Source: a virus
Reading direction: 5' to 3' (one strand)
DNA length: 22,594 nt
IMG/VR virus record: IMGVR_UViG_3300046817_000643
Location: 1 to 22,594 of that record
Part shown: positions 3,790 through 22,594 of the stretch, piece after piece
Layout: each line of letters opens with the position of its first letter
How positions within the stretch are numbered: the stretch's first letter is position 1
The notes under the pieces: generated by a model
Databases searched by the model: none
What the model was told of the DNA's origin: nothing
Seen by the model: only the letters and a program-made list of their open reading frames with translations
Made by a program: the position numbers and the translations under genes

Positions 3790-5301
3790 TTAGTTGATTC
3801 TGATTCCTTGGAGTCCTTTGGGGTTCCAATCTTCTCGACTACCATCCTCAAGTAAGCGAAACCTGTGAGCCCAGTTGTACCCGGCTACGGCTTCGCCGGG
3901 AATGGTCATGGAACGGTTGGCGAACTTCTGGGTGACTTGGATGCAGTCGAGAGCTTGTCGGAGCCAGTCCTGTTCCTCGGTTTCGTTGGTTTCCGGCATC
4001 TGGAAATACACGGCGTCATGTAGCTGACTCAGAATTTGGACCGGGCCTGTGCCCATCTTTTTCCAGAGACGGTAGAGTCCGAGGTTGAGACAGTCGCCCG
4101 TGGCGGACTGGAACAAGTACGCTATTCCGCCCTTTAGTGTGTCTGGGTCGTTCGGCCTGTCGAAGAAGTCTCGCTTTCTTCCAAAGGAATTGACCAAGAA
4201 TCTTTCCCGCTGAAGTTGTTGCGCTACCCATTCGTGCATCCGACGAATACATGGAAATGCTGTGAAGTATCTTTCCTGAAATTCCTCGACTAAGTTCTGT
4301 GGGATTCGAGTTTGTCGAGAGATTTCTCTAGGTGAGCCATAATAATTAGTAGCGTGACCGAGCCGTTTCGAAGCATCACGGAACGTAAATAGCCGATAGA
4401 ACCGCCTTTCGGCAATTTGGCGATCCTTTTTAAGATCGCCCGTCCAATCCCAATCTGGGTACAATAGACGCGTAACCGCAGTATGCAAATCTCCAGACTC
4501 ACACGCGTCCAGATAGCTCCAATCACCAAACATAATGCCACAGAACCAGCCCACATCGCGCGCTTCAGATTGCGCTTTGTCGATCCCGTAGAGTTTGAAT
4601 CCGAGGTCGGGAATAAAGACACGGCGAAGCTCCTCGGTTATGTTTTGGAAGTTGTTTCCGGTCTGTTTCCAGGCTTGGGACTCTTCGACGAAGGCCATGA
4701 AGGGGGATTTTGACGAAGAGAACCGGCCTGTAGTCGTTCCACCGATGTTGTAGGAACACCTCCATCGCCAGTCGGGGTCGATTTGAGTTTCAAGAACCTG
4801 AAGGGATTTCTTTAGATCTCGGTCGAGAAGAATTGCGTTGATGATGGGTTCGGCAAACTGGTCGGAAAGGGACAACTTTTCTAAAGTTTCCCGGTTCATG
4901 GGGCGTTTAACTTCGCCGTCGAGAACTCGCTCAATCGGTTTGAGTCCCATTCGGGAATAGAAAAGCTCTTGGAGTTGTTTCGGCGAGTTGGAAAGTTTGT
5001 TGGTATAGGATGCTCCAGTGGCGCTGACGAAGGCGGAAAGAATCCGTTCAAGGGAGTCTTGTTTTTCTTTCAGAATGATGATTGCGTTTTCTCTTTCGTG
5101 CATGTCAACCCGGAAACCACGACCCATCATTTCGAGGACCGGGCCTTGCATGGCGCGTTCGAGGTCATAGATCAGCGTGTCGTTTTCCCTTAACGCTTCG
5201 CGAGCCTGATCTATCTCGAACGTGAGAGCACAGTCGTAACCATTATAGACAGCCTGATTGCCAGCGTCGATAGGTAGGTCGTGTGCCTGTATAACTGGCA
5301 T
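3790..5301 (-). CDS. family A DNA polymerase, polymerase chain lacking most of its exonuclease domain
   Basis: This 503-residue chain carries all three family A polymerase motifs: TGRFSSS (191-197); motif A with D241 in YGIDKAQSEAR; motif B R308...K312...Y320/Y321-G; and motif C QLHDA (426-430), where the usual HDE is HDA. The position equivalent to E. coli Phe762 is His316. The first residues contain YNGYDCALTFEI (Y19, D23), which matches the Exo III YxxxD motif of the proofreading domain, but Exo I and Exo II are absent; they are on the UDG-exo protein at 6372..7673. A TTG lies directly before the chosen ATG at 5301. The ribosome site is weak, and the ATG overlaps the stop of a 22-codon ORF (TGATG), suggesting coupled translation. 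Confidence 0.93.
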   Translation of the reverse strand: MPVIQAHDLPIDAGNQAVYNGYDCALTFEIDQAREALRENDTLIYDLERAMQGPVLEMMGRGFRVDMHERENAIIILKEKQDSLERILSAFVSATGASYTNKLSNSPKQLQELFYSRMGLKPIERVLDGEVKRPMNRETLEKLSLSDQFAEPIINAILLDRDLKKSLQVLETQIDPDWRWRCSYNIGGTTTGRFSSSKSPFMAFVEESQAWKQTGNNFQNITEELRRVFIPDLGFKLYGIDKAQSEARDVGWFCGIMFGDWSYLDACESGDLHTAVTRLLYPDWDWTGDLKKDRQIAERRFYRLFTFRDASKRLGHATNYYGSPREISRQTRIPQNLVEEFQERYFTAFPCIRRMHEWVAQQLQRERFLVNSFGRKRDFFDRPNDPDTLKGGIAYLFQSATGDCLNLGLYRLWKKMGTGPVQILSQLHDAVYFQMPETNETEEQDWLRQALDCIQVTQKFANRSMTIPGEAVAGYNWAHRFRLLEDGSREDWNPKGLQGIRIN

Positions 5302-5369
5302 CAAATGCTCTCATTCAAGAGTTGTTGAGCCTCCCATTGCGACTTCCTGTACCCTAAGTACCGTCGCAT
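5301..5369 (-). CDS. 22-residue micro-gene coupled to the polymerase gene
   Basis: A 22-codon ORF (begins MRRYLGYRKSQW, then an amphipathic EAQQLLNE stretch) fills the gap between the SLOG-like gene and the polymerase exactly. Its ATG overlaps the upstream stop as TGATG, and its own TGA overlaps the polymerase ATG as TGATG. This double coupling explains why the polymerase ATG has only a weak ribosome site. It may be a real basic micropeptide or only a translational coupler; no homologue is known to me. Confidence 0.55.
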   Translation of the reverse strand: MRRYLGYRKSQWEAQQLLNESI

Positions 5370-5887
5370 CAGGGAATCCCGAGTTCGATTTTGAAGGCCC
5401 GGACGAGGAATGTCTTACATGCAAGAAAGATTCCCGGATTGGTGCGTTCTCTGTTTCCAGCGACGTTTAAGGTGTCCCAGTCTTCGTACTGATTCAACCA
5501 GACTCGAAACGGTTCGGTTGCTGAGAACCAGTCGTCGTCGGTAATTGGTATGGCTTGGCGCGGCACCCAGGGAACGAAGAAATGGTCCTTGCCATGTTTG
5601 AAACAGAGACGTTGAGTCAGTTTCGTTCCAGGAGAATGCAAGTTGCCAAAGAGAAAGGTCGCCCCGGAAATTTGGACGTTGAGTTCTGTCCTGGGAGGGT
5701 AGGAAAAGCTTTCATGCTCTTTCATGTTGTAGAGTTGTTTGAAGTCGAGTCTTGCGCCGTCGTCGGTACGGAAACCTTTTGGCATCCAACCGCCAGTTTC
5801 AAGGCCAAGTTCTTTTCCGGCTGCGAGTCCGGCTTGGTCGGCCCCCGTTTGTCCGCCAGAGATGATTTTGGTAACATGAAACGGCAT
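5369..5887 (-). CDS. SLOG-superfamily protein, 'putative molybdenum carrier' type
   Basis: This 172-residue protein opens with KIISGGQTGADQAGLAAGKE, followed by LETGGWMPKGFRTDDG. This is the phosphate/nucleotide-binding signature of the Rossmann-like SLOG family labelled putative molybdenum carrier. Members are thought to bind or process a nucleotide-derived ligand; a molybdenum role in a phage is unlikely. The ATG at 5887 has AAGGAACT upstream. An in-frame GTG at 5953 (TAGTG junction with the previous gene) would add 22 residues, but these lie before the conserved domain. It is one of the genes that separate the exonuclease and polymerase parts of the replicase. Confidence 0.8.
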   Translation of the reverse strand: MPFHVTKIISGGQTGADQAGLAAGKELGLETGGWMPKGFRTDDGARLDFKQLYNMKEHESFSYPPRTELNVQISGATFLFGNLHSPGTKLTQRLCFKHGKDHFFVPWVPRQAIPITDDDWFSATEPFRVWLNQYEDWDTLNVAGNRERTNPGIFLACKTFLVRAFKIELGIP

Positions 5888-5900
5888 TCGGAGTTCCTTG

Positions 5901-5917
5901 TTAGATTTCAAATCTAA
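5901..5917. promoter_or_regulatory. 17-bp palindrome upstream of the SLOG-like gene
   Basis: TTAGATTTCAAATCTAA is a perfect inverted repeat (8-bp arms around one base). It lies immediately upstream of the AAGGAACT ribosome site for the gene that starts at 5887, in a 65-nt gap that is long for this tightly packed region. It could be an operator, or an RNA hairpin that limits ribosome access. No promoter elements are evident around it. Confidence 0.35.
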
Positions 5918-5952
5918 GAAACTTGTCTTCGTTGAGATGGCGAAATTTTTCA

Positions 5953-6150
5953 CTAGATGAGTCCCTTATCTTTCGCCAACCATTCAGGCATGGTCATGGT
6001 TCCAGAGAATGGTTTGCGATCGCTCTCATCCCATTCGACTTGAGATTTTGGCAGCCAGACGGTAGTTGTTCCGTCATAGAAGCGGAACGCCTTTTCGGTT
6101 TCGTAGGGAGTTACGAGTTCGCCGGCAATGTCGACAAGGGAGGAAGACAT
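5953..6150 (-). CDS. small conserved-looking phage protein
   Basis: A 65-residue protein with FRFYDGTTTVWLPKSQVEW in the middle and MPEWLAKDKGLI at the C-terminus. This layout (a short beta segment with WLPKSQ, then a PEWLAxxKGL tail) resembles small proteins common in phage replication regions, but their function is unknown. The ATG at 6150 is 8 nt from AGGAG. It ends with TAG, 65 nt before the next chosen start. Confidence 0.7.
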   Translation of the reverse strand: MSSSLVDIAGELVTPYETEKAFRFYDGTTTVWLPKSQVEWDESDRKPFSGTMTMPEWLAKDKGLI

Positions 6151-6161
6151 TTTCAAAGCTC

Positions 6162-6362
6162 CTAAACTGCAAGTTTGAAAAGCTGACGAAGTTTCTCATA
6201 GCTCTCGGGAGTTAAAGCAGAAATGGTTGTTTTGAGTTCTGCGTCGGAGCGGAAGTGGAATGTTGCTGTGTCGTGAGATAAAACAACGATTGCCACTTCG
6301 TCGAGGTTGACGTAGGTCTTGGTTGTAGATGTTCCGGTGCTTAGTTCGAGAAACCTGGCCAT
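6162..6362 (-). CDS. hypothetical small beta-rich protein
   Basis: A 66-residue protein (begins MARFLELSTG) with alternating strands, KTYVNLDEVAIVVL and TATFHFRSDAELKTTI, followed by a helix. The layout is typical of small phage proteins of unknown function. AGGAGACTCC lies directly before the ATG. It sits between the UDG-exonuclease gene and the other genes that divide the replicase. Confidence 0.68.
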   Translation of the reverse strand: MARFLELSTGTSTTKTYVNLDEVAIVVLSHDTATFHFRSDAELKTTISALTPESYEKLRQLFKLAV

Positions 6363-6371
6363 TGGAGTCTC

Positions 6372-7673
6372 CTATTCGTCTCGTTTCAGATTGTCGGCAC
6401 GGCTCATTTGTTTCCAGGCGATGTCGTTGGCGTAGATAGAGCCCAGGTATCCGAGAGTCTTTGGAAGCTCTGGATATCTCGAATGATGCCAGAGCATTGT
6501 GTCGTGAGCAGCGTTTCGAGGATGGATGCCCATTCGGATGAAATGACTCATGTCATAAACGCCATTTTGGAAAATTTTTTCACAGTCCGACTCTTCGATT
6601 TCCTGAACCAGTTTCCAGGCTTGGAACTCTAGGTTCTCGTTCTGCCAGAAGTTGATCCCGTTTTCTGGAAAGCCTATCGAGGCAGCTATCCGTCCGATGT
6701 CGATGATTTTTCCGTCTTTGGTATGAGCATCACGGAAAGGAATGACCAAGGCGTTGGAAGGACTTGAGGCAAAGCCAACGATGGAAATTTGACCTCTAAG
6801 GGTTTCAATATCGTTTGCAAGTTTCCGATGACGATTAGAGTCGATCCAGGCTCGTATTTTATGGAGACCGTCCTGAGTTGGAGCGGGAATGGTTATGAAA
6901 CGAAAGGGGCGTCGGATCTCCGGAAAGTTCCGCTCCCGAGAAGCCTTTTGGAAGTCGGCAATGGAAGTAACGCGGAGCTTGTTGTTTCTGAGAACTGCGG
7001 CGGGATGAAAACTGGGGAGAACTTTAAAGTCCAATCCAGTTAATTCTGTGTTGGTCCTGGAAACTGTGCCTCGAAGAGTGGTGATCTTTGTCTGACCTAA
7101 AAGCGCCCAACAGGCAGCATTTCCCAAGGCTACGATCAACGTTGGGTTTAAGTCCCCAAGTCTCGCCCAGAGGGGTTTGACGTGTTTCTGGTAAAATTCA
7201 TCCTTCACGTGAGTTCCGCGGGAATGTTGACTCGCTTTCCACGGCGGCATTGGAGTCTCTTTTTCGGTTGAAAAGAACCAGCCGAGATCGTTGGATCGAA
7301 TACTTTTTGATTTACAGTCCTTGCAGCTTGGCTTTCCGAAGAGGTTGATATTGTGACTTCCGCAGTTGTTACAAACTTCCGGTGGATGTTCGTTGAAGAC
7401 GTTGGTAACGAACAAATCCTGCGTCTGTTGCATCACTTTCCAATGATGAACCAGGTTGAGTTCATTTGGCCAAGTGTATTCGTGGCAGAAGGTACACCTT
7501 CCGTCGAGGAACTCTGTCTCTCTCTTACATTCCCGACAAAGAAGTTTCATGTACGGGGCGAAGTTGGCCGCACCGAGTTGGAGAGTGAGTTCCCTTCCTG
7601 TTGGACCGACAAGGGCGTGTTGAAGCTGGGCTTCTCTTCTTCCCCACGCCTCACCGACGAATACAGTCCTCAC
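6372..7673 (-). CDS. uracil-DNA glycosylase-like domain fused to a family A-type 3'-5' exonuclease domain
   Basis: This 433-residue protein has two parts. Residues 1-250 look like a family 4/5 uracil-DNA glycosylase: VGEAWGRREAQ (6-16), LVGPTG (21-26), ALGNAACWALLG (182-193) and PSFHPAAVLRN (220-230). Two zinc-knuckle-like pairs are inserted: C46/C49-C60/C63 and C101/C104-C117/C120. Residues 265-433 are a DnaQ-fold proofreading domain: Exo I D288/E290 (NDIET), Exo II N370/D374 (QNGVYD), then HDTM and a PELPKTLGYL block as in family A polymerases. Exo III is missing and appears at the N-terminus of the polymerase chain at 3790..5301. SPO1-type phage polymerases are known to carry an N-terminal UDG-like domain, so this looks like the front part of such a polymerase. 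The GTG start overlaps the previous stop (GTGA) with AAGGAT upstream. Confidence 0.87.
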   Translation of the reverse strand: MRTVFVGEAWGRREAQLQHALVGPTGRELTLQLGAANFAPYMKLLCRECKRETEFLDGRCTFCHEYTWPNELNLVHHWKVMQQTQDLFVTNVFNEHPPEVCNNCGSHNINLFGKPSCKDCKSKSIRSNDLGWFFSTEKETPMPPWKASQHSRGTHVKDEFYQKHVKPLWARLGDLNPTLIVALGNAACWALLGQTKITTLRGTVSRTNTELTGLDFKVLPSFHPAAVLRNNKLRVTSIADFQKASRERNFPEIRRPFRFITIPAPTQDGLHKIRAWIDSNRHRKLANDIETLRGQISIVGFASSPSNALVIPFRDAHTKDGKIIDIGRIAASIGFPENGINFWQNENLEFQAWKLVQEIEESDCEKIFQNGVYDMSHFIRMGIHPRNAAHDTMLWHHSRYPELPKTLGYLGSIYANDIAWKQMSRADNLKRDE

Positions 7674-9115
7674 AACTTGATCCTTCGAAGAATCCGGGCT
7701 TGATTTATCGAGGAGTTGGCCCGTTCAACGTAGTCTTTGTTGGTGTCGAGGCCGAGGATCTTTCTACAGCCGAGTTCTTCTGCTGCTCTCAAGGCAGCGC
7801 CAGAGCCACAGGTCGGATCGAAGACGTCCGTTGTTTCGTCGATGAGCATTCCGAAAAAGTGCTTCAGCATGGGCTCTGATTTCTGACTTGGGTGGATGGC
7901 ATTATTCGGCAAAGGCGATGGATAACAATTCGCCAGGCTTCTGACTAAAGGCCGCCTCCCTCTGGAACACAAAAGGGCAGTTTCATAAACTCGCCGAGGA
8001 TACTGGTTGTCCCGACCGGGAATGATACCAGCGTTGTCGGACTTGAACCAGATGAGAGGATGCCGATGGACAAATAAGCCCACCGAATCAAGTTTGGTTC
8101 GGGTAGCCTCATAAAATTCCATCGAAAACCAAAACATGATGTGAGCTGAATAGGAAGCAAAGCGGTCGAGATTATGAATGAATCCATCGAGGAGTTCCCA
8201 GTAGTTTTTGGATTCGTAGTCTTCTTCGGTGCTAGAAATACTTTCCGCATAGGCTTTGTATTCAACGTTGTAGGGAAAATCGACATGGATTAGGTTGAAC
8301 TTCGGGCCGGAATAGGAAGAAATCCAGTCGAGAAAATCGGCTTGGATCACGGGGTTCTGAGGCTCTTTTGGAGCTTCAGGAGCCGGCTGGATAGGCGAAA
8401 CAGGAACATGCTCATGATTTTTCGGGCTAGGAATAGGGTTAGTTTCTGAGTCAGGAACAAGGCCGGGAGTAAGAAGAATTTCCCCAATTTGTTCAGCTTC
8501 TGGACTCGATGCAGGTATAGGCGTTGGTTCTGGAACTGGTTCTGTTCCGGTTTCGCTAAAAATCTGCTTCCCAGCATTGATGATGTCTCCGAGAATTTGT
8601 CCGGTTTTGCGTTCAGCAGCGAGTTGGAGAAGGTTGTACGCTTGGGAAATGCTTCCGGCATCTTTTAAAATGGGGGAGTCGAGATTCTTTCGGACCATCA
8701 GGCAAATTCGAATCCAACGTTCGGAAGTTGAGATTGCTTCGGCGGTTTTGCTCAAGTCCCAAGTTGGTTCTTCGGCCCGCTTGGTTTCGTGGATTTCGGC
8801 AATGCCGAGAATATGGTCCCGCCACGGGAGTTCGGATCTTTTGATGTTCTCTTCGAGTTCGGCGACTCGGGCTTCGGTTGGGGATAGGTTTTCGATGAAG
8901 CGGAAGTGGACATTTTCAATCAACGGGTTTGTTTCTAGGGCTGTGAGGGCGGCCAGTCGCCGCCCTCCAACGACAAGATGGATTTCGTCGTTTTCTTTTC
9001 TCACCACGATCGGTTGAATCAGTCGGCGCTTTACCGAACTGATGAAATGTTCGTCGATGTCGACAGATTTTCTCTGTCGATTTTTGACGATGATGGAGGA
9101 GGGATCGAGGTTCAT
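7670..9115 (-). CDS. ParB/Srx-like domain fused to a DNA methyltransferase
   Basis: This 481-residue protein has an N-terminal ParB-type nuclease/CTP-binding-like domain with GGRRLAAL (50-57) and ELEENIKRSELPW (87-98). A flexible Pro/Glu-rich linker covers about 185-258. The C-terminal methyltransferase has DFPY (279-282) in the motif IV position, HPSQKSEPM (408-416) as motif X, and FDPTCGSGAAL (432-442) as motif I, so the order IV-X-I fits the beta class of amino-methyltransferases. DFPY in place of DPPY is less common. It probably methylates adenine N6 or cytosine N4 in a sequence-specific way, protecting phage DNA or marking it for replication. No cognate restriction enzyme is present. The next gene overlaps it by 4 nt. 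Confidence 0.88.
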   Translation of the reverse strand: MNLDPSSIIVKNRQRKSVDIDEHFISSVKRRLIQPIVVRKENDEIHLVVGGRRLAALTALETNPLIENVHFRFIENLSPTEARVAELEENIKRSELPWRDHILGIAEIHETKRAEEPTWDLSKTAEAISTSERWIRICLMVRKNLDSPILKDAGSISQAYNLLQLAAERKTGQILGDIINAGKQIFSETGTEPVPEPTPIPASSPEAEQIGEILLTPGLVPDSETNPIPSPKNHEHVPVSPIQPAPEAPKEPQNPVIQADFLDWISSYSGPKFNLIHVDFPYNVEYKAYAESISSTEEDYESKNYWELLDGFIHNLDRFASYSAHIMFWFSMEFYEATRTKLDSVGLFVHRHPLIWFKSDNAGIIPGRDNQYPRRVYETALLCSRGRRPLVRSLANCYPSPLPNNAIHPSQKSEPMLKHFFGMLIDETTDVFDPTCGSGAALRAAEELGCRKILGLDTNKDYVERANSSINQARILRRIKL

Positions 9116-14004: not shown

Positions 14005-14289
14005 CTACAGTTCGATGTCGACAGCTTGGGAGTGGGTTTTTCGTTCCCGAACTTTCGGGGTTTTGTTCTGGTCTTCTTGGGTCCAACGATAGGCTTGCGC
14101 CCGGACCATGTTGACGAAAGAGGTTAAGTCCTTGTCGGTAATTCGACCTGGAAGCCCAGCGACAAGGTTCTGGTTGATCCGATCCAGAAGTTCATCGACC
14201 GCTTTTGGATCTGCTTCGGAGAGGGGCGAGTCTCCGTCGAGAAGGTCGAGAGCACCGCGAAGGGCAGCGGTCAGGTTGGGATCAGCCAT
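14005..14289 (-). CDS. small protein with C-terminal AVDIEL tail
   Basis: A 94-residue helical protein (begins MADPNLTAALRGALDLL) with a basic region KVRERKTHSQ immediately before a C-terminal AVDIEL. The tail is one of seven near-identical C-termini in the window. A helical segment FVNMVRAQAYRW loosely resembles AVRALRAGRAWV in the N-terminal part of the AAA+ ATPase, which also carries the motif; whether these are paralogous is uncertain. CAGGAAAACC precedes the ATG. No family recognised. Confidence 0.7.
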   Translation of the reverse strand: MADPNLTAALRGALDLLDGDSPLSEADPKAVDELLDRINQNLVAGLPGRITDKDLTSFVNMVRAQAYRWTQEDQNKTPKVRERKTHSQAVDIEL

Positions 14290-14940: not shown

Positions 14941-15128
14941 CAGGAGTTCCTTTTGGAGTCGAAGTCACCGGAACGGATTCTGTGCATAAATTTTAGAATG
15001 GCGTTTTCGGTTAGATTATATGGCGGATCATGGTTGAGCAAAAGATGTTCCAATGCTTCTGGAGTCATGCCTGTTGGAGCATAACCAAACCATAACAATG
15101 CCCATTCAAGTAATAGAGCGTAACTCAA
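14940..15128 (-). CDS. hypothetical small protein, TTG start
   Basis: A 62-residue protein (begins MSYALLLEWALLWFGY) with a hydrophobic first 15 residues and then a polar helical region. The TTG at 15128 overlaps the preceding stop by 4 nt (TTGA), with GGAG 9 nt upstream, matching the GTGA/ATGA junctions used elsewhere. An internal ATG at 15068 has no ribosome site. The N-terminus could associate with a membrane. No family recognised. Confidence 0.55.
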   Translation of the reverse strand: MSYALLLEWALLWFGYAPTGMTPEALEHLLLNHDPPYNLTENAILKFMHRIRSGDFDSKRNS

Positions 15129-15430
15129 AGGTCGATCTCCACTTCGTCTTTTTCGGGGTTTTCGTCCGGGTCGTCTGGCATAGGGACGTTGGGAGTGTTG
15201 ATGACCCAGATTTTGTTTTCGGGTTCAGTGGGATGTAACCGGACTTGAATGTGTTGCCAGTCTCGATTTTCTTTCTTAAACCGATACAATATCTGTTTTG
15301 CTCTAAGGGCTGGGGAGGGAAGGTCGCCGACGACTTCGACCTTGACTTCGAGTCCGATGTCAGACATCGCGGCCCGAGTCAGAATCTGTCGAGCGTTTTG
15401 GGCGAGGAGTGAGTTGTTGTCGGAAGGCAT
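15125..15430 (-). CDS. small protein with C-terminal VEIDL tail
   Basis: A 101-residue protein with a helix (LLAQNARQILTRAAM), then beta strands (IGLEVKVEVVG and HIQVRLHPTEPENKIWVI), and an acidic Pro-rich end DPDENPEKDEVEIDL. The last five residues match the shared tail of other small proteins here, although the preceding stretch is acidic rather than basic. GGAG lies 10 nt before the ATG. No family recognised. Confidence 0.66.
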   Translation of the reverse strand: MPSDNNSLLAQNARQILTRAAMSDIGLEVKVEVVGDLPSPALRAKQILYRFKKENRDWQHIQVRLHPTEPENKIWVINTPNVPMPDDPDENPEKDEVEIDL

Positions 15431-15701: not shown

Positions 15702-15995
15702 TTATCCCAGTTCGATGTCGATGGCGTTGGAATATTCGAGTCGGAGTTCTAGGCCGATCGCCGCGAGGGATTGGGAATAGGCGTCGACTTTTGCTTCGAC
15801 GCGGGTCTTGGCTCGTTCGATGATGGAGGGGTCGATGGAAAGCAGCTGGTCGATGTGGATTTCTAGGGCTGAGTCCTTGGGAAGCGGGAGTGGCGGGTCG
15901 AGCTTGGATAATTTATCCTCGATGATTGCGGTCGCTAACGCCCGAGCTTCGCGGGAGATTAGGTCTTCGAGACTTGCTTTTTTGGTATTGGCCAT
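15702..15995 (-). CDS. small protein with C-terminal AIDIELG tail
   Basis: A 97-residue helical protein (LEDLISREARALATAIIEDKLSKL early; IIERAKTRVEAKVDAYSQSL later) that ends NAIDIELG. The tail belongs to the shared C-terminal motif family and is here followed by one Gly. TAGGAAT precedes the ATG. No family recognised. Confidence 0.68.
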   Translation of the reverse strand: MANTKKASLEDLISREARALATAIIEDKLSKLDPPLPLPKDSALEIHIDQLLSIDPSIIERAKTRVEAKVDAYSQSLAAIGLELRLEYSNAIDIELG

Positions 15996-16004
15996 TTTTT
16001 ATTC

Positions 16005-16412
16005 CTAGAGAAGAGAATCCAGGTCGATGTCGATAGCTTGGTTTTTTCTTTTTGGTTTTTTATCGGCGGCCCGTAGGTCTCGAACTTGGTCTTCGATGCT
16101 TGGTTCGCCGAAGAAGATTCCGGCCTCGCGCTGTTTGACTTGCCAGGAAAGGCTGACAGAAAAGGAAAGAGACAAGGCTCGAATCTCGTCGGAACTTGGC
16201 GGTTCGTCGAGGATGATGTGGAGGTTGTATCCCCGATCGAGGATGGCGAATCTTCCGGACTTGAGGGGAATTACAAGAACCGCGACGTTGGAATACTTTA
16301 GCGACAGGGCTTCTTGAGCATCTGGGTTTGTGACCGGGTCGAGGTCAGGATTAAGTTCCTGATCCTCTACCAGTTCGAGTTGGAGTTCCTCTGAGTCGGT
16401 AATGTTGGCCAT
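16005..16412 (-). CDS. small protein with C-terminal AIDIDLDSLL tail
   Basis: A 135-residue protein with an acidic N-terminus (EELQLELVEDQEL), a central beta-rich block (NVAVLVIPLKSGRFAILDRGYNLHIIL), and a basic segment KKPKRKNQ directly before AIDIDLDSLL at the C-terminus. The basic-polar-AIDIDLD arrangement parallels KRRKSQDINIDLDD inside the AAA+ ATPase. The ribosome site is weak (ATAGGC). The upstream 85-nt gap contains a direct repeat. No family recognised. Confidence 0.67.
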   Translation of the reverse strand: MANITDSEELQLELVEDQELNPDLDPVTNPDAQEALSLKYSNVAVLVIPLKSGRFAILDRGYNLHIILDEPPSSDEIRALSLSFSVSLSWQVKQREAGIFFGEPSIEDQVRDLRAADKKPKRKNQAIDIDLDSLL

Positions 16413-16749: not shown

Positions 16750-16797
16750 TTAAGGGCGGCGTCTATTGGACGACGGAAAATTCCTTGGCCATTGCAT
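16750..16797 (-). CDS. possible 15-residue coupled mini-ORF
   Basis: Fifteen codons (begins MQWPRNFP, ends with a basic NRRRP) whose ATG overlaps the preceding stop as TGATG and whose TAA falls just before the ribosome site of the next gene. Geometry is the same as for the 22-codon micro-gene at 5301..5369, but with only 15 codons and no conserved content it may be chance. Confidence 0.25.
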   Translation of the reverse strand: MQWPRNFPSSNRRRP

Positions 16798-17141
16798 CAA
16801 AGGTCCAGGTCGATGTCGATTGCTGAGGAATGTTTTTCTTTTTGTTTTTCTTTTCGGGGCTTGGATCCAGAGCCAGACTCAGACACAGACACAGACACAG
16901 ATTCAGATTTATGCACTGGGGAGGGATTTTCTTTCGGGTCGGATAGCTTTCGCCCCGTCTTGGGTTCGGTGATGTTGGCGAAACGAGTCGCCAGTTCTTT
17001 GATTTCGTGAAGGTAGGCTGTTACTTTCATCTCCGCCCGGTCTCGTTGGTCGCGGAGACTCTCGGCGAGTGAAATTACGGCTTCGATGTTGCCGGCGTCG
17101 AGAAGGGCTCGAATGGCTGAGTTAAGCGAGGGTTCAGACAT
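16797..17141 (-). CDS. small protein with Ser-Glu repeat and C-terminal AIDIDLDL tail
   Basis: A 114-residue protein with an N-terminal helical domain (IRALLDAGNIEAVISLAESL; DRAEMKVTAYLHEIKELATR), then a repeat-derived linker SESVSVSVSESGSGS, a basic stretch KPRKEKQKEKHSS, and the tail AIDIDLDL. It shows the modular order domain-flexible linker-basic-tail most clearly. The ATG at 17141 has GGAGAAG upstream and overlaps the preceding stop by 8 nt (ATGTCTGA). No family recognised for the helical domain. Confidence 0.72.
   Translation of the reverse strand: MSEPSLNSAIRALLDAGNIEAVISLAESLRDQRDRAEMKVTAYLHEIKELATRFANITEPKTGRKLSDPKENPSPVHKSESVSVSVSESGSGSKPRKEKQKEKHSSAIDIDLDL
16874..16920. repeat. 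dispersed Ser-Glu-coding repeat, copy 2
   Basis: Plus-strand CAGACTCAGACACAGACACAG-type units (16876 onward) end in CAGATT, followed a few bases later by GCACTGGG (16913-16920). It encodes the Ser-Glu-Val linker of the tail-bearing protein at 16797..17141. The GCACTGGG block is read in a different frame here than in the copy at 19435..19481. Confidence 0.6.
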
Positions 17142-17361
17142 TGTTCTTCTCCAGAATTTGGCGCGATTTCTGGGCGGCTTCAATGTAGCCTTTGTGATCG
17201 GTGTCGATCAGAAGCTGAAGCAGGTCGTTAGCAAGGAAGAAGTCGAGGTCGAGATGGTTTTTGTTGAAGATGTCGAGGAGCTTTTCGAGGCGCTCTCGGT
17301 TTCTTGGCTCAGAGTAGGATTCGATGCGTTCGGGAGTCATGATGATGCTGGGTTGAGACAT
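17134..17361 (-). CDS. hypothetical small helical protein
   Basis: A 75-residue protein (begins MSQPSIIMTPERIESY) with helices RERLEKLLDIFNKNH, FFLANDLLQLLI and GYIEAAQKSRQILEK. It looks like a small helical bundle. GCGGAG lies 12 nt upstream of the ATG. Its stop overlaps the next gene by 8 nt. No family recognised. Confidence 0.63.
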   Translation of the reverse strand: MSQPSIIMTPERIESYSEPRNRERLEKLLDIFNKNHLDLDFFLANDLLQLLIDTDHKGYIEAAQKSRQILEKNNV

Positions 17362-18256: not shown

Positions 18257-18544
18257 TCAGTTTCCTTGAAAGATCAGAAGGAGAATTGTTGCTTGGATTT
18301 TGTTGAAGATTTCTGGGACTTCTTCCATGTCCGATCGGCCGTGGATTGAGAGAACTTTTCCGAGCAGGTTGGAGAGAAGTTCGCAGATTTCGTGAGCGGT
18401 TCGGATGTCGTGTTTTTCGAGGATTTCGACGATTTCGATTCCGACTGTTCCGATCCGATTTATTCTAGCGGCTTCTTCATCCGTACGTCCGGTTTCTTCG
18501 GCCCGGGAAATTAGGGTTTTGAGTTCGTCGATTCGGGTGGTCAT
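18257..18544 (-). CDS. hypothetical helical protein
   Basis: A 95-residue, wholly helical protein (IDELKTLISRAEETGRTDEE; GIEIVEILEKHDIRTAHEICELLSNLL read as separate helices). It could form a bundle or coiled coil. The ATG overlaps the stop of the acidic AAA+ partner gene as ATGA, so all three genes from 21374 down are probably co-translated. No family recognised. Confidence 0.65.
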   Translation of the reverse strand: MTTRIDELKTLISRAEETGRTDEEAARINRIGTVGIEIVEILEKHDIRTAHEICELLSNLLGKVLSIHGRSDMEEVPEIFNKIQATILLLIFQGN

Positions 18545-19866
18545 GGAGTCTGTCTTTCCATTCTGAGGGATTTGAGAAGAGATTCTGCTGCAACTTCGAC
18601 GGCGAGGTTGGCGGATTCTGGGGTTTCGGAACCCTTACTTCCGGGGACGAAAATCGTGTTGGGATTGGTGTCGTTGCGGTCATGGACTGGGATGCCGTAC
18701 CAGCCTTTGAGGTCTGATTCAAGTTCTTTCGTTTGTTCCAACAGAGCAAAAGCGAGTCTTCGCATCGACGCTGGATGGGCAATGGCAAATGCTGCCCGGT
18801 CGATGTCGAGATATTCGCCGGCCTTTTTATACACGATAGAATAGCGCCAAGTTTTGCTGCCTGACCTGGTGTTCCCGATGATTCGGAGTTCGGTTGAGAT
18901 GCCTTGGGCTTCGAGTCGAGAAGCGAGGCTCAAGACCGCTGCGCCCCGAAGCATCATGTCATTCACGGTAACGTAGGCGCTGATCCAGTGGTTGTAGTCA
19001 ATTCGAACGATTGGCTTGGAGGTTCGATGGTCCGCTCCAGGATCAACAGCCATACAGCTTGGATCACCGGAACAATAGACTGGAACGATTGGGTATCCTC
19101 CAGCAACGGAGAATTCGATGGTTGGATAATAGGTTGGCCGAGGAGATACGCGGGCGAAACTGTCAGTCAGTAGTTTTCGCCCCTCGGGCCAGCCGGTTGA
19201 AACGGCCATAGTCACCGCTTCGTCGAAGGTTTTGGTTCCGAACCAAGATTCATCTTTCCTTTCATGGCTGGTACAGTTTTCTTTTTTCCAGGTTCGTAAA
19301 CTCTGGTCCAAGACGCATTTGACGAAATTGCTCCAGGAATCAAATTCCCTATGAACACAGGTAGAATTTCGTTCCGAATAGGTCCAGCTCCAGTCGTCAG
19401 GGTTTGGGTCCTGGCCTCCCGAGATTTTTCCTTCAGGTTCAGATACAGATTCAGAGTCAGATTCTGTTGGTATGCACTGGGAATCTAGATCTTCTTCAGA
19501 ATCGGTTTCAGACTCTGAGTCAGGGTCGAACTCATCGCCGTTGGGGAGGTCGCCATCATCTGGGTCTGAGCCGGCTTCTGAATCAGAATCTTCGTCAGAT
19601 TCCTCTCCTTCTTCTGGCCCCACTTCCTGACCTTCGGCATCGCCGCTCTCTCCCGCATCTCGTGCTTCCGAGTCATCTTCGTTCTCCTCTGAATCTTGGT
19701 CTTGATCCTGACCTGAACCTCCGCCCGAGTTAGGCGGTTCTGGCCAGCCAAATAGGGCGAACCAGGCAGCGGCGGAAGTTAGGTCAGAAAAAGCCCCGAT
19801 CGTCTTGTGTGCCCAGCGTGGGTCTGGATCGGAGGAAATTGGTTCTGGTTTGTTGTCTAGGGGCAT
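18541..19866 (-). CDS. acidic partner of the AAA+ ATPase, CobT/VWA-like (DUF7192-type)
   Basis: This 441-residue protein has an N-terminal hydrophobic patch (30-45), then about 100 residues (50-147) made almost entirely of Asp, Glu, Ser, Gly and Gln, then a folded region beginning HREFDSWSNFVKCVLD. The folded part has SWFGTKTFDEAV, GWPEGRK, YPIVPVYCSGDP and a RGAAVLSLASRLEAQGISTELRII block, which I associate with a phage family annotated DUF7192. The last block has a strand-helix-strand pattern like the von Willebrand A fold, but the DxSxS metal site is not evident. An acidic linker before a VWA-like domain, and co-translation with a MoxR/CobS-type ATPase (TGATG junction), recall CobT. The ATG has GGAGGGAG upstream. 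Confidence 0.7.
   Translation of the reverse strand: MPLDNKPEPISSDPDPRWAHKTIGAFSDLTSAAAWFALFGWPEPPNSGGGSGQDQDQDSEENEDDSEARDAGESGDAEGQEVGPEEGEESDEDSDSEAGSDPDDGDLPNGDEFDPDSESETDSEEDLDSQCIPTESDSESVSEPEGKISGGQDPNPDDWSWTYSERNSTCVHREFDSWSNFVKCVLDQSLRTWKKENCTSHERKDESWFGTKTFDEAVTMAVSTGWPEGRKLLTDSFARVSPRPTYYPTIEFSVAGGYPIVPVYCSGDPSCMAVDPGADHRTSKPIVRIDYNHWISAYVTVNDMMLRGAAVLSLASRLEAQGISTELRIIGNTRSGSKTWRYSIVYKKAGEYLDIDRAAFAIAHPASMRRLAFALLEQTKELESDLKGWYGIPVHDRNDTNPNTIFVPGSKGSETPESANLAVEVAAESLLKSLRMERQTP
19435..19481. repeat. dispersed Ser-Glu-coding repeat, copy 4
   Basis: Plus-strand CAGATACAGATTCAGAGTCAG followed by ctgttggtatgcactggg (19464-19481). The 15-mer cagattcagagtcag (19446-19460) occurs identically at 21707-21721, where it is read in another frame. 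Encodes part of the acidic segment of the AAA+ partner. Confidence 0.62.
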
Positions 19867-21374
19867 CAATTTACTCCCTCCAACTCCAGCTCCTGATCCT
19901 GGGTCCTGTTCTCAGGTTGCTCAGGAGGAAGAAGTAACTCAAATTTCCCAGCAATGTTAACTATGCGGGAAACTGTGTCGGGATCGAGGCCGCGCCAGAG
20001 TTGGGCTTTACAGACTTCGTCGGCCCCGTCACCGTCACGGATGTCTTGGAGTCCGCGAGCAGAAGCGCGCATGGAGACGATATGATCCAGTCTTAACTGA
20101 GCTATGGCTCCGCGAACTTTCTGGACGTACTTTATCCAGGGATGATTTCCATAGATTTGGATTTCGAGAGCCGGATCATAGTCCACGACCTCATAGGCAA
20201 ACCGGTCCAGGCTCGCTGCGTCGAGTGGGTTTCGCCCCTGGTATTGCATGGTGGCGCCGTGTCCGTAAGTGTTGGCGGCGACAATACATCTGAACCGAGG
20301 GTGAACTTTCAGGATTCCGTTGGGGAATGCGCCGAAGTCGTTGGCGAGGATGGAATTTAGTGCTCCAAGGGCAGCGGCGGCCCACATGTCGGCTTCGTCA
20401 ATACATAACAGTCCGCCGTCTCGAACACACTCGTAAACTAGAGTTTCGATGTATTCTCCGGTTGGCGACTTGAAGCCTTTTACGTCGTACTTGGTCAGGG
20501 CTTGATCTATTGGGAAGAATTCGGTTTCGAGGTTATAGCCTGCTCCGACACAAACCTGTTTGAACAAATGGGTCTTGCCGGTTCCTGCGCCGCCGACCAT
20601 GTAGACGTGCTGTCCGCGAAGGATCCGCTTCAGAATCCGTGGAAACGCTTCATGCCTTGGTTCTGCGTCGAGATTTATGATTTCTTTATTATTGATTTTT
20701 ATTTCTAGCCGCCTCGGCAGGTTCTTGTTGATGATGTCTTCTGCAACTGCGTGGGCAACTTCTGCTCCTGCATCGCTCGCGAGTCCAACGATCTTGGATT
20801 TCATATCCTCGGACAAGGTCAGCACCGCTTCGCGCAACTTCGAACTCAGCTGAGAATCGACCTGGAGTCGAAGGTCTTGGGTTGCTTTGTTGAGTCGGGG
20901 AACGATGACCGCCTCGGCTGCGCGGGCGATGGCGCGCTCGTCGATGACCAGATTTCGCTTCTGATTCTGGTCCTGATTCTGCTCCGTGTTGGGAGGCTCA
21001 GGAAACTGGTCTTTAAATGGACTCGGAACTTCGCTTCCCTCGTCTAAAAGACCGTTGATCTCGTCGTCCAGGTCGATGTTAATGTCCTGACTTTTTCGCC
21101 GTTTTGGCACGTTTCCAAAACGCTTGTTCAAGTCTTCGTTGACGATGTTGTTGGTCACCCAGGCTCTTCCGGCCCTGAGAGCCCTGACTGCTCCTTCATT
21201 CGACATGGAAATGGTTTTGCGCTCGGAAACGCCGAGAGTCTGGAGCCATTCGTTGATGAGGAAGCGGGTATTTTCTGTCAGAGCTGGAATTGGTTTCCAC
21301 GAAGGATCGCCTGGAGAGAGCGAAACCAGTTTCAAGCTGTCTTCGAGGGATTTGAGGCGTTCTAGGTCGGCCAT
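19866..21374 (-). CDS. MoxR/CobS-like AAA+ ATPase with internal INIDLD motif
   Basis: This 502-residue protein has a C-terminal AAA+ module: Walker A GGAGTGKT (261-268), Walker B LLCIDEAD (322-329), sensor-like IVAANTYGHG (364-373) and an arginine-finger region DAASLDRF (385-392). The sequence style is that of MoxR/CobS/gas-vesicle GvpN ATPases, which remodel partner complexes through a VWA-type protein. Residues 145-215 are long helices. The N-terminal 110 residues are not part of the AAA+ fold and contain KRRKSQDINIDLDDEI (91-106), which matches the C-terminal tails of seven small proteins here. The next gene is coupled by TGATG. AAAGGTACG precedes the ATG. Confidence 0.87.
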   Translation of the reverse strand: MADLERLKSLEDSLKLVSLSPGDPSWKPIPALTENTRFLINEWLQTLGVSERKTISMSNEGAVRALRAGRAWVTNNIVNEDLNKRFGNVPKRRKSQDINIDLDDEINGLLDEGSEVPSPFKDQFPEPPNTEQNQDQNQKRNLVIDERAIARAAEAVIVPRLNKATQDLRLQVDSQLSSKLREAVLTLSEDMKSKIVGLASDAGAEVAHAVAEDIINKNLPRRLEIKINNKEIINLDAEPRHEAFPRILKRILRGQHVYMVGGAGTGKTHLFKQVCVGAGYNLETEFFPIDQALTKYDVKGFKSPTGEYIETLVYECVRDGGLLCIDEADMWAAAALGALNSILANDFGAFPNGILKVHPRFRCIVAANTYGHGATMQYQGRNPLDAASLDRFAYEVVDYDPALEIQIYGNHPWIKYVQKVRGAIAQLRLDHIVSMRASARGLQDIRDGDGADEVCKAQLWRGLDPDTVSRIVNIAGKFELLLPPEQPENRTQDQELELEGVN

Positions 21375-21649: not shown

Positions 21650-21889
21650 CTATAGCTCGATGTCGATGACGGAGTTTCTGGAAACTTGTCTTGCCGTGTG
21701 GCGTTTCAGATTCAGAGTCAGTGTCTTGTTGTCGATGAAGAGGTTTCTTCGCGACATTGCGGCTTCTGGAAAGGCTTCTAAAGCCGCCTTTCTCGACTCG
21801 AAGGCCCATTTCCAAGTTCCGAAACGAGGATGGAATATGGTCCAGAGCCCTGGAATTGGCTGTTTGATTTTGAGTTCGGTGAGATTCAC
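21650..21889 (-). CDS. small protein with C-terminal VIDIEL tail
   Basis: A 79-residue protein (begins with GTG; NLTELKIKQPIPGLWTIF) with a beta-rich N-terminal half, GTWKWAFESRKAALEAF in the middle, a basic stretch LKRHTARQVSRNS, and the tail VIDIEL. The dispersed repeat 15-mer lies inside this gene and is read as LTLNL rather than Ser-Glu. The GTG overlaps the preceding stop by 4 nt (GTGA). No family recognised. Confidence 0.66.
   Translation of the reverse strand: MNLTELKIKQPIPGLWTIFHPRFGTWKWAFESRKAALEAFPEAAMSRRNLFIDNKTLTLNLKRHTARQVSRNSVIDIEL
21707..21721. repeat. short copy of the dispersed repeat, read in another frame
   Basis: cagattcagagtcag is identical to 19446-19460. Here it encodes LTLNL within the tail-bearing protein at 21650..21889, not Ser-Glu. 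Confidence 0.5.
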
Positions 21890-22075: not shown

Positions 22076-22594
22076 TTAGAGGTCAATCTCGATGGCGTCA
22101 TCGAACGAGCCAGAAGTTGGGATCTTTCCGCCGATCTTTTTGGGAGCTTTTGAATTAGTTTCTTTTTGTGGATTGTAACTGACTGAAACACCGTTCGCCA
22201 TGACTTCGATCCGACGCGGGCGGCGAGCGGCGGGAATTACTTTGTTGGCTAGGGTTATGTCTTTGTGGTCAGAGACGATGCCCCGCCAAATATCCTGAGA
22301 ACGTCTTAGTTCTGCCTGCTCGCGACGTTCGAGCATCTTTTGCTTTTCGTCTTCGCTGGCATTGTCGAATTTCTTTTGCCAGTCGCTAATGTGGGCGGCC
22401 CTGGCTTCAGCAATTCGCTGTTCTCTAACAACTTGTGGGTCGAGACGTTCTGTTGTGGTCGGGGCGGGTTTCGCCGCCTTGGCTTTTGATAAAAGTTCGA
22501 CCAGAGCGGCTTGAATCCCTGCGGGGAGATCGTTGAAGGAAATTCCTTCGATCTTGTCCCGAGCTGCTCCGCCTTGGCCCGGCGCTTCACAGAT
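22076..22594 (-). CDS. 3' part of a gene for a protein with C-terminal AIEIDL tail, cut by the window edge
   Basis: The frame is open from the right edge to the stop at 22076, giving at least 172 residues with no start needed inside the window. An internal ATG at 22336 lies within a helical Arg/Glu-rich region (EKQKMLERREQAELRRSQ) and is not the likely start. The visible part is Ala/Lys/Glu-rich and helical, then a basic, Pro-rich stretch (PQKETNSKAPKKIGGKIP), then GSFDDAIEIDL. The tail is the seventh C-terminal copy of the shared motif. No family recognised. Confidence 0.72.
   Translation of the reverse strand: MCEAPGQGGAARDKIEGISFNDLPAGIQAALVELLSKAKAAKPAPTTTERLDPQVVREQRIAEARAAHISDWQKKFDNASEDEKQKMLERREQAELRRSQDIWRGIVSDHKDITLANKVIPAARRPRRIEVMANGVSVSYNPQKETNSKAPKKIGGKIPTSGSFDDAIEIDL

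Follow-up and report, generated by a model that had tools for sequence, protein, structure and literature searches.

In this work we describe a family A DNA polymerase that is divided between two genes in a phage fragment, the IMG/VR record IMGVR_UViG_3300046817_000643 (hereafter the window, i.e. the whole record of 22,594 bases; all genes treated here lie on its minus strand). As judged from sequences and structure models, the two genes very probably encode a Klenow-like replicase of two subunits, in which the proofreading site would form only at the interface between them (probability about 0.86). The uracil-DNA glycosylase (UDG)-exonuclease chain (6372..7673; 433 residues) starts with GTG at 7673, overlapping the stop of an upstream methyltransferase gene, and comprises a family 4-like UDG fold followed by a Klenow-type 3'-5' exonuclease domain that is cut off after its first three quarters. 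The polymerase chain (3790..5301; 503 residues, ATG start at 5301) begins with the last helix of the exonuclease domain, which carries motif Exo III, and continues with a family A thumb, palm and fingers. An earlier reading of this DNA (the original prediction) had placed both open reading frames (ORFs) at these positions, which we confirm. The polymerase chain matches PF00476 (E = 3.6e-23, 82.6 bits compared to a gathering score of 34.3) and the UDG-exonuclease chain the UDG family PF03167 (8.4e-8, 32.8 bits compared to 24.3). On phrog_17 the latter chain covers positions 548-786 and the former positions 809-1232, so that the two represent consecutive parts of one polymerase family.

The catalytic residues of the exonuclease are distributed over both chains. 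Exo I (D288, 6810..6812; E290, 6804..6806) and Exo II (D374, 6552..6554) are located on the UDG-exonuclease chain and Exo III (YNGYD, 5233..5247) on the polymerase chain, with Y19 at 5247-5245 and D23 at 5235-5233; counted from GTG 7673 and ATG 5301, these are the five residues which the original prediction had named. Hereby, the Asp/Glu, Asp, Asp and Tyr of a Klenow-type DEDDy exonuclease are all found, but over two chains instead of on one polypeptide. A complete Exo III on the exonuclease chain itself, which the original prediction had regarded as evidence against a shared site, is not present. One candidate for such a private motif, the YxxD segment in SIYANDIAW, was rejected, because in fused relatives it aligns with the SLYCEDHVHWKD block that precedes the real Exo III. 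The exonuclease chain ends 12 residues past a conserved WK; in fused relatives this WK opens a loop, roughly 14-30 residues long, that runs into YNxxD. The NCBIfam profiles for DNA polymerase I (NF004397) and DpoZ match the polymerase chain from residue 18, just before Y19, and the YNGYD segment thus belongs to the homologous region, while in seven related records the PF01612 match on the exonuclease chain reaches no further than position 120-129 of a profile of 173. Together, these three boundaries place the break inside the exonuclease domain. The exonuclease chain closes with a basic-acidic tail (LKRDE, IKKED; residues 426-433 in the window) that is conserved in 70 of 76 split exonuclease chains and disordered in the models; it may help docking on the polymerase chain.

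To define the distribution of the split, IMG/VR was scanned and loci were classified by profiles, which yielded 122 loci where separate ORFs encode the two parts. L003 and L061 have their split inside the polymerase domain and were set aside; the other 120 represent 74 distinct lineages, i.e. lineages from IMG/VR plus the cultured Caulobacter phage Kuura. Among these distinct pairs Exo I D288 and E290 are kept in 73/73 covering rows, Exo II D374 in 74/74, and, on the polymerase chain, Exo III D23 in 74/74 and Y19 in 73/74. In 74/74 pairs the polymerase chain is the one that carries Exo III, and on the basis of sequence such a uniform partition is beyond chance. In a further scan, not deduplicated against the first set, all 69 informative split-clade loci with both parts were split. 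The phages concerned are a large, mostly uncultured group: judged by the stronger and part of the weaker matches among 50,697 GenBank phages, Kuura seems to be its only member there. A genome scan for prophage carriers gave contigs of metagenome-assembled genomes, those of the split clade being mostly short, and no clear prophage among them.

In a tree of 61 polymerase chains, 46/46 split rows fall on one side of a single branch (support of 100 in the Shimodaira-Hasegawa-like approximate likelihood ratio test, SH-aLRT) with no fused row among them. The tree was built with a quick method and is unrooted, so that clade status depends on the fused relatives lying outside. With this proviso, sequence data indicate that the split clade is monophyletic, and no fused member was found inside. 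In the sister group, by contrast, 79 of 80 loci encode the UDG, exonuclease and polymerase parts as a single polypeptide. The exonuclease and polymerase chains of the split pairs also co-diverge (mirror-tree r = 0.80 compared to a permutation maximum of 0.16, n = 73). Within the fused sister group, L208 (3244-3260) shows an in-frame TAA directly after GGAGGA, three bases before an ATG and in the same loop, so that the start codon has a Shine-Dalgarno sequence. Either the gene has undergone fission here for a second time or the stop is a sequencing error; if genuine, a second, independent fission at this loop would mean that the break is favored there.

In place of a true two-chain co-fold, we modelled a proxy, the relative L075, whose two genes share a reading frame with about 190 bases between them. 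Reading through three TGA codons gave a 943-residue chain, and the underlying alignment was restricted to rows of the split clade, same-frame read-throughs among them, with the catalytic columns checked to line up. The resulting AlphaFold model has a mean predicted local distance difference test score (pLDDT) of 89.2 and a predicted template modelling score (pTM) of 0.86, with disorder limited to the exonuclease tail and the out-of-frame linker. Residues 223-922 of the model superimpose on Klenow residues 325-928 of E. coli Pol I (8oo6_A; Z = 30.3, root-mean-square deviation 3.2 Å, 561 aligned residues). Since the polymerase part accounts for about 480 residues in this range, the superposition includes the exonuclease part. 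The model also matches T7 polymerase (Z = 28.5), its best PDB matches are family A polymerases, and the Foldseek match has an E value of 9.5e-26. Modelled alone, the exonuclease chain of the window adopts a UDG and an exonuclease fold (pLDDT 91.2), and Foldseek finds Klenow with this chain, too.

A further full polymerase in the genome had been named by the original prediction as a finding that would contradict it, and no other DNA polymerase was found in the sampled relatives. Of 25 records, 24 have exactly one family A polymerase gene (PF00476) according to Pfam. The 19 records searched for family B and C polymerases gave none, and there was no match to the family B domain PF00136, as in the T4-type split gp43, in the window or 18 related records.

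The arrangement we favor for this enzyme, the only DNA polymerase identified in the phage, is as follows. Subunit 1 would consist of the UDG and the exonuclease domain without its last helix, and subunit 2 of that helix together with thumb, palm and fingers. The break lies in the exonuclease-domain loop between the block following Exo II and the Exo III helix, the helix staying on the thumb. After translation the chains, both encoded in one gene cluster, would bind each other, with the Exo III helix of subunit 2 packing against the sheet of subunit 1 and thereby completing the exonuclease domain. D288, E290, D374 and D23, with Y19, would then form one two-metal site, and because this site would be shared by both chains, neither should proofread alone. 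The assumption of the original prediction that the chains must meet to complete the site is supported by the conservation of the five residues over 74 divergent pairs, the single split clade, the co-divergence, an ATGA-coupled gene order in some lineages, the lack of another polymerase in the sampled relatives and a read-through model covering Klenow from one end to the other. Several points weigh against this arrangement. Complex formation and activity of the two chains are what we infer; a nonsense linker joins the chains in the L075 model, and AlphaFold may recall the Klenow arrangement; lineage L146 has an Arg where the Exo III Tyr is expected; and, the window being a partial genome, another polymerase may lie outside of it.

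Alternatively, the exonuclease chain could be an independent nuclease or repair protein, composed of UDG and a degenerate exonuclease and no longer working with the polymerase, with Exo III on the polymerase chain serving only as a structural helix. This seems improbable. The chain alone is indeed predicted to fold well (pLDDT 91), but the final quarter of the domain profile is missing from it, and the residues of Exo I, II and III are all kept on both chains across a large divergence, which would be unexpected if the site were never assembled. It is even harder to envisage that the parts are joined into one protein by a group I intron, an intein, trans-splicing or frameshifting. Introns are well known in phage DNA polymerase genes (cited in PMC10580990), but the gap in the window holds three complete genes, and in several relatives an ATGA overlap (L029, L037 and L144) or a gap of 2 nucleotides (L019) leaves no room for an intron or intein. 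Moreover, an intron search gave no Rfam match in the window, L010, L144, L075 or L019, and the polymerase chain has its own start codon, which in L010, where the gap is 29 nucleotides long, is preceded by the Shine-Dalgarno-like AAAGGGGAA. That the split is an artefact of assembly or sequencing, as might be suspected since most members are metagenomic contigs, or that the gene is decaying, is practically ruled out by recurrence in 74 distinct lineages and by catalytic residues that are all intact. One of these lineages is the cultured Kuura, for which a BamHI digest served to check the assembly (PMC9959647). Starting from the favored two-subunit replicase, one might further speculate that the phages put the split to use: the proofreading subunit could detach from the family A replicase, working like Pol III epsilon, and the ratio of the chains would set fidelity or strand displacement; we consider this rather unlikely.

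The SPO1 polymerase has the domain order UDG-exonuclease-polymerase. The comparison with SPO1 made in the original prediction holds for this domain order, and nearby fused relatives exist: the UDG-exonuclease-polymerase of Microcystis phage Mel-JY34 (MW202489) shows the same order and motifs and belongs to the nearest group on the tree. The same split as in the window is found in Kuura (OQ067476, PMC9959647), where Kuura_029 (exonuclease) and Kuura_026 (polymerase) share 37% and 41% identity with the window chains and are separated by two small genes. There, gene 029 is annotated as a hypothetical protein and gene 026 as DNA polymerase; the accompanying paper gives only "a DNA polymerase", its text mentioning neither a split nor an exonuclease (PMC9959647). 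Other divided polymerases differ. In MW202554 (L148, 1727-4364), a podovirus from a spring metagenome, UDG-exonuclease and polymerase are likewise on separate genes, but the break follows Exo III and RRYNCLDTIATYR is on the exonuclease chain, so that a single chain has the full set of exonuclease motifs. The OM43 phages MEP401/402 (PMC10580990), Vibrio phage VS-ABTNL-3 (L003) and contig L061 carry a family A polymerase on two ORFs, in MEP401/402 and VS-ABTNL-3 with a small ORF in between; here, however, the break is inside the polymerase domain (before motif A in VS-ABTNL-3 and L061) and the exonuclease domain is on one chain. For MEP401 the authors suspect an intron (PMC10580990). The replicative polymerase of the T4-like Aeromonas phages 25 and 44RR is also encoded by two genes, gp43A/gp43B, and the halves from phage 25 co-purify and show polymerase activity (reviewed in PMC2988022); this is, in contrast to the window pair, an unrelated family B polymerase with another break. 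ExnV1 (PDB 7r0t, PMC9629493) from a thermophilic virus metagenome is a stand-alone Pol I-type 3'-5' exonuclease, which differs in retaining its own Asp501/Tyr497 equivalents and whose gene its authors take as truncated (PMC9629493). A literature search that had most subscription journals outside its reach turned up no paper on a polymerase broken between Exo II and Exo III, and this break point is apparently undescribed so far. This is in line with the original prediction, which knew of no family A split at this position. The splits found in the literature concern other breaks or families.

Instead of the four small intervening genes of the original prediction, we found three plausible ones in the gap, i.e. 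a gene of up to 194 residues encoding cpYpsA (PF12694; 5369..5953), one of 67 residues belonging to phrog_8389 (5953..6156) and one of 66 residues with no family above the curated cut-off (6162..6362). Among the 74 lineages cpYpsA is found within the gap in the window lineage only, and a phrog_8389 homologue is the sole gene in the gap of L075. Over the split lineages the distance between the two genes varies, the extremes being a 4-base ATGA overlap and 4.6 kb. The gap is a recurrent insertion spot, holding a DUF7768-like gene (likened to the DUF7768 protein of the window) in 28, an HNH-like gene in 8 and a MazG-like gene in about 3 of the 74 lineages, the DUF7768-like and HNH-like genes being called by sequence resemblance, not by Pfam. 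Given these HNH-like genes, an HNH-driven origin of the split is possible. The split would go back to one fission of a UDG-exonuclease-polymerase gene, possibly via a homing endonuclease or via a stop with re-initiation; only then would small genes have begun to insert into the gap.

Over the split pairs the family A polymerase residues are conserved as well, i.e. the catalytic Asp of motif A (D241, 73/73) and of motif C (D429, 69 of 70 ungapped rows) and the O-helix Lys (K312, 72/73), and the O-helix position Y320 is mostly Y/F. Motif C (polymerase residues 428-430, 4020-4012) reads HDA or HDS across the split clade compared to the usual HDE of family A; HDS occurs in fused relatives, too. 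In the UDG domain, E8 and the HP motif are kept in most split-clade members, and its structure matches family 4/UdgX at Z = 15-16. As its score for family 4 uracil-DNA glycosylase (NCBIfam TIGR00758) is under the cut-off (46.6 bits compared to 125.3), we regard the domain as UDG-like and do not file it as family 4.

Three further observations concern the neighborhood. The gene upstream of the exonuclease gene (7670-9115) encodes a DNA methyltransferase that is fused to a ParB-like part at its N-terminus, and a GTGA overlap couples it to the exonuclease gene. At 18541-19869 and 19866-21374, a MoxR/CobS-like AAA ATPase (phrog_249, PF07728) adjoins a very acidic protein of 442 residues, which possibly has a VWA/CobT-like part. 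Moreover, short proteins mostly without mutual similarity (14005-14289, 15702-15995, 16005-16412, 16797-17183, 21650-21889 and 22076-22594) share the C-terminal tail (A/V)(I/V)(D/E)I(D/E)L; a further protein at 15125-15430 is grouped with them. In a six-frame translation of the window, 6/6 occurrences of the motif lie 0-4 residues from a C-terminus. Relatives with the tail are L172 and L179, the latter having four proteins with IDIDL at the end, among them an HNH-like one. The tail may be a docking or targeting signal; the AAA ATPase carries an internal QDINIDLDDEINGLL resembling it.

For the annotation of phage genomes, these results imply that exonuclease halves, like that of Kuura, can pass unrecognized under the label of hypothetical protein, and that they are missed when whole polymerases are searched for. 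With respect to the replicative polymerase itself, the split clade would represent a natural, clade-wide case of an active site shared by two proteins, which is directly testable with Kuura as a cultured member and the fused relatives as controls.
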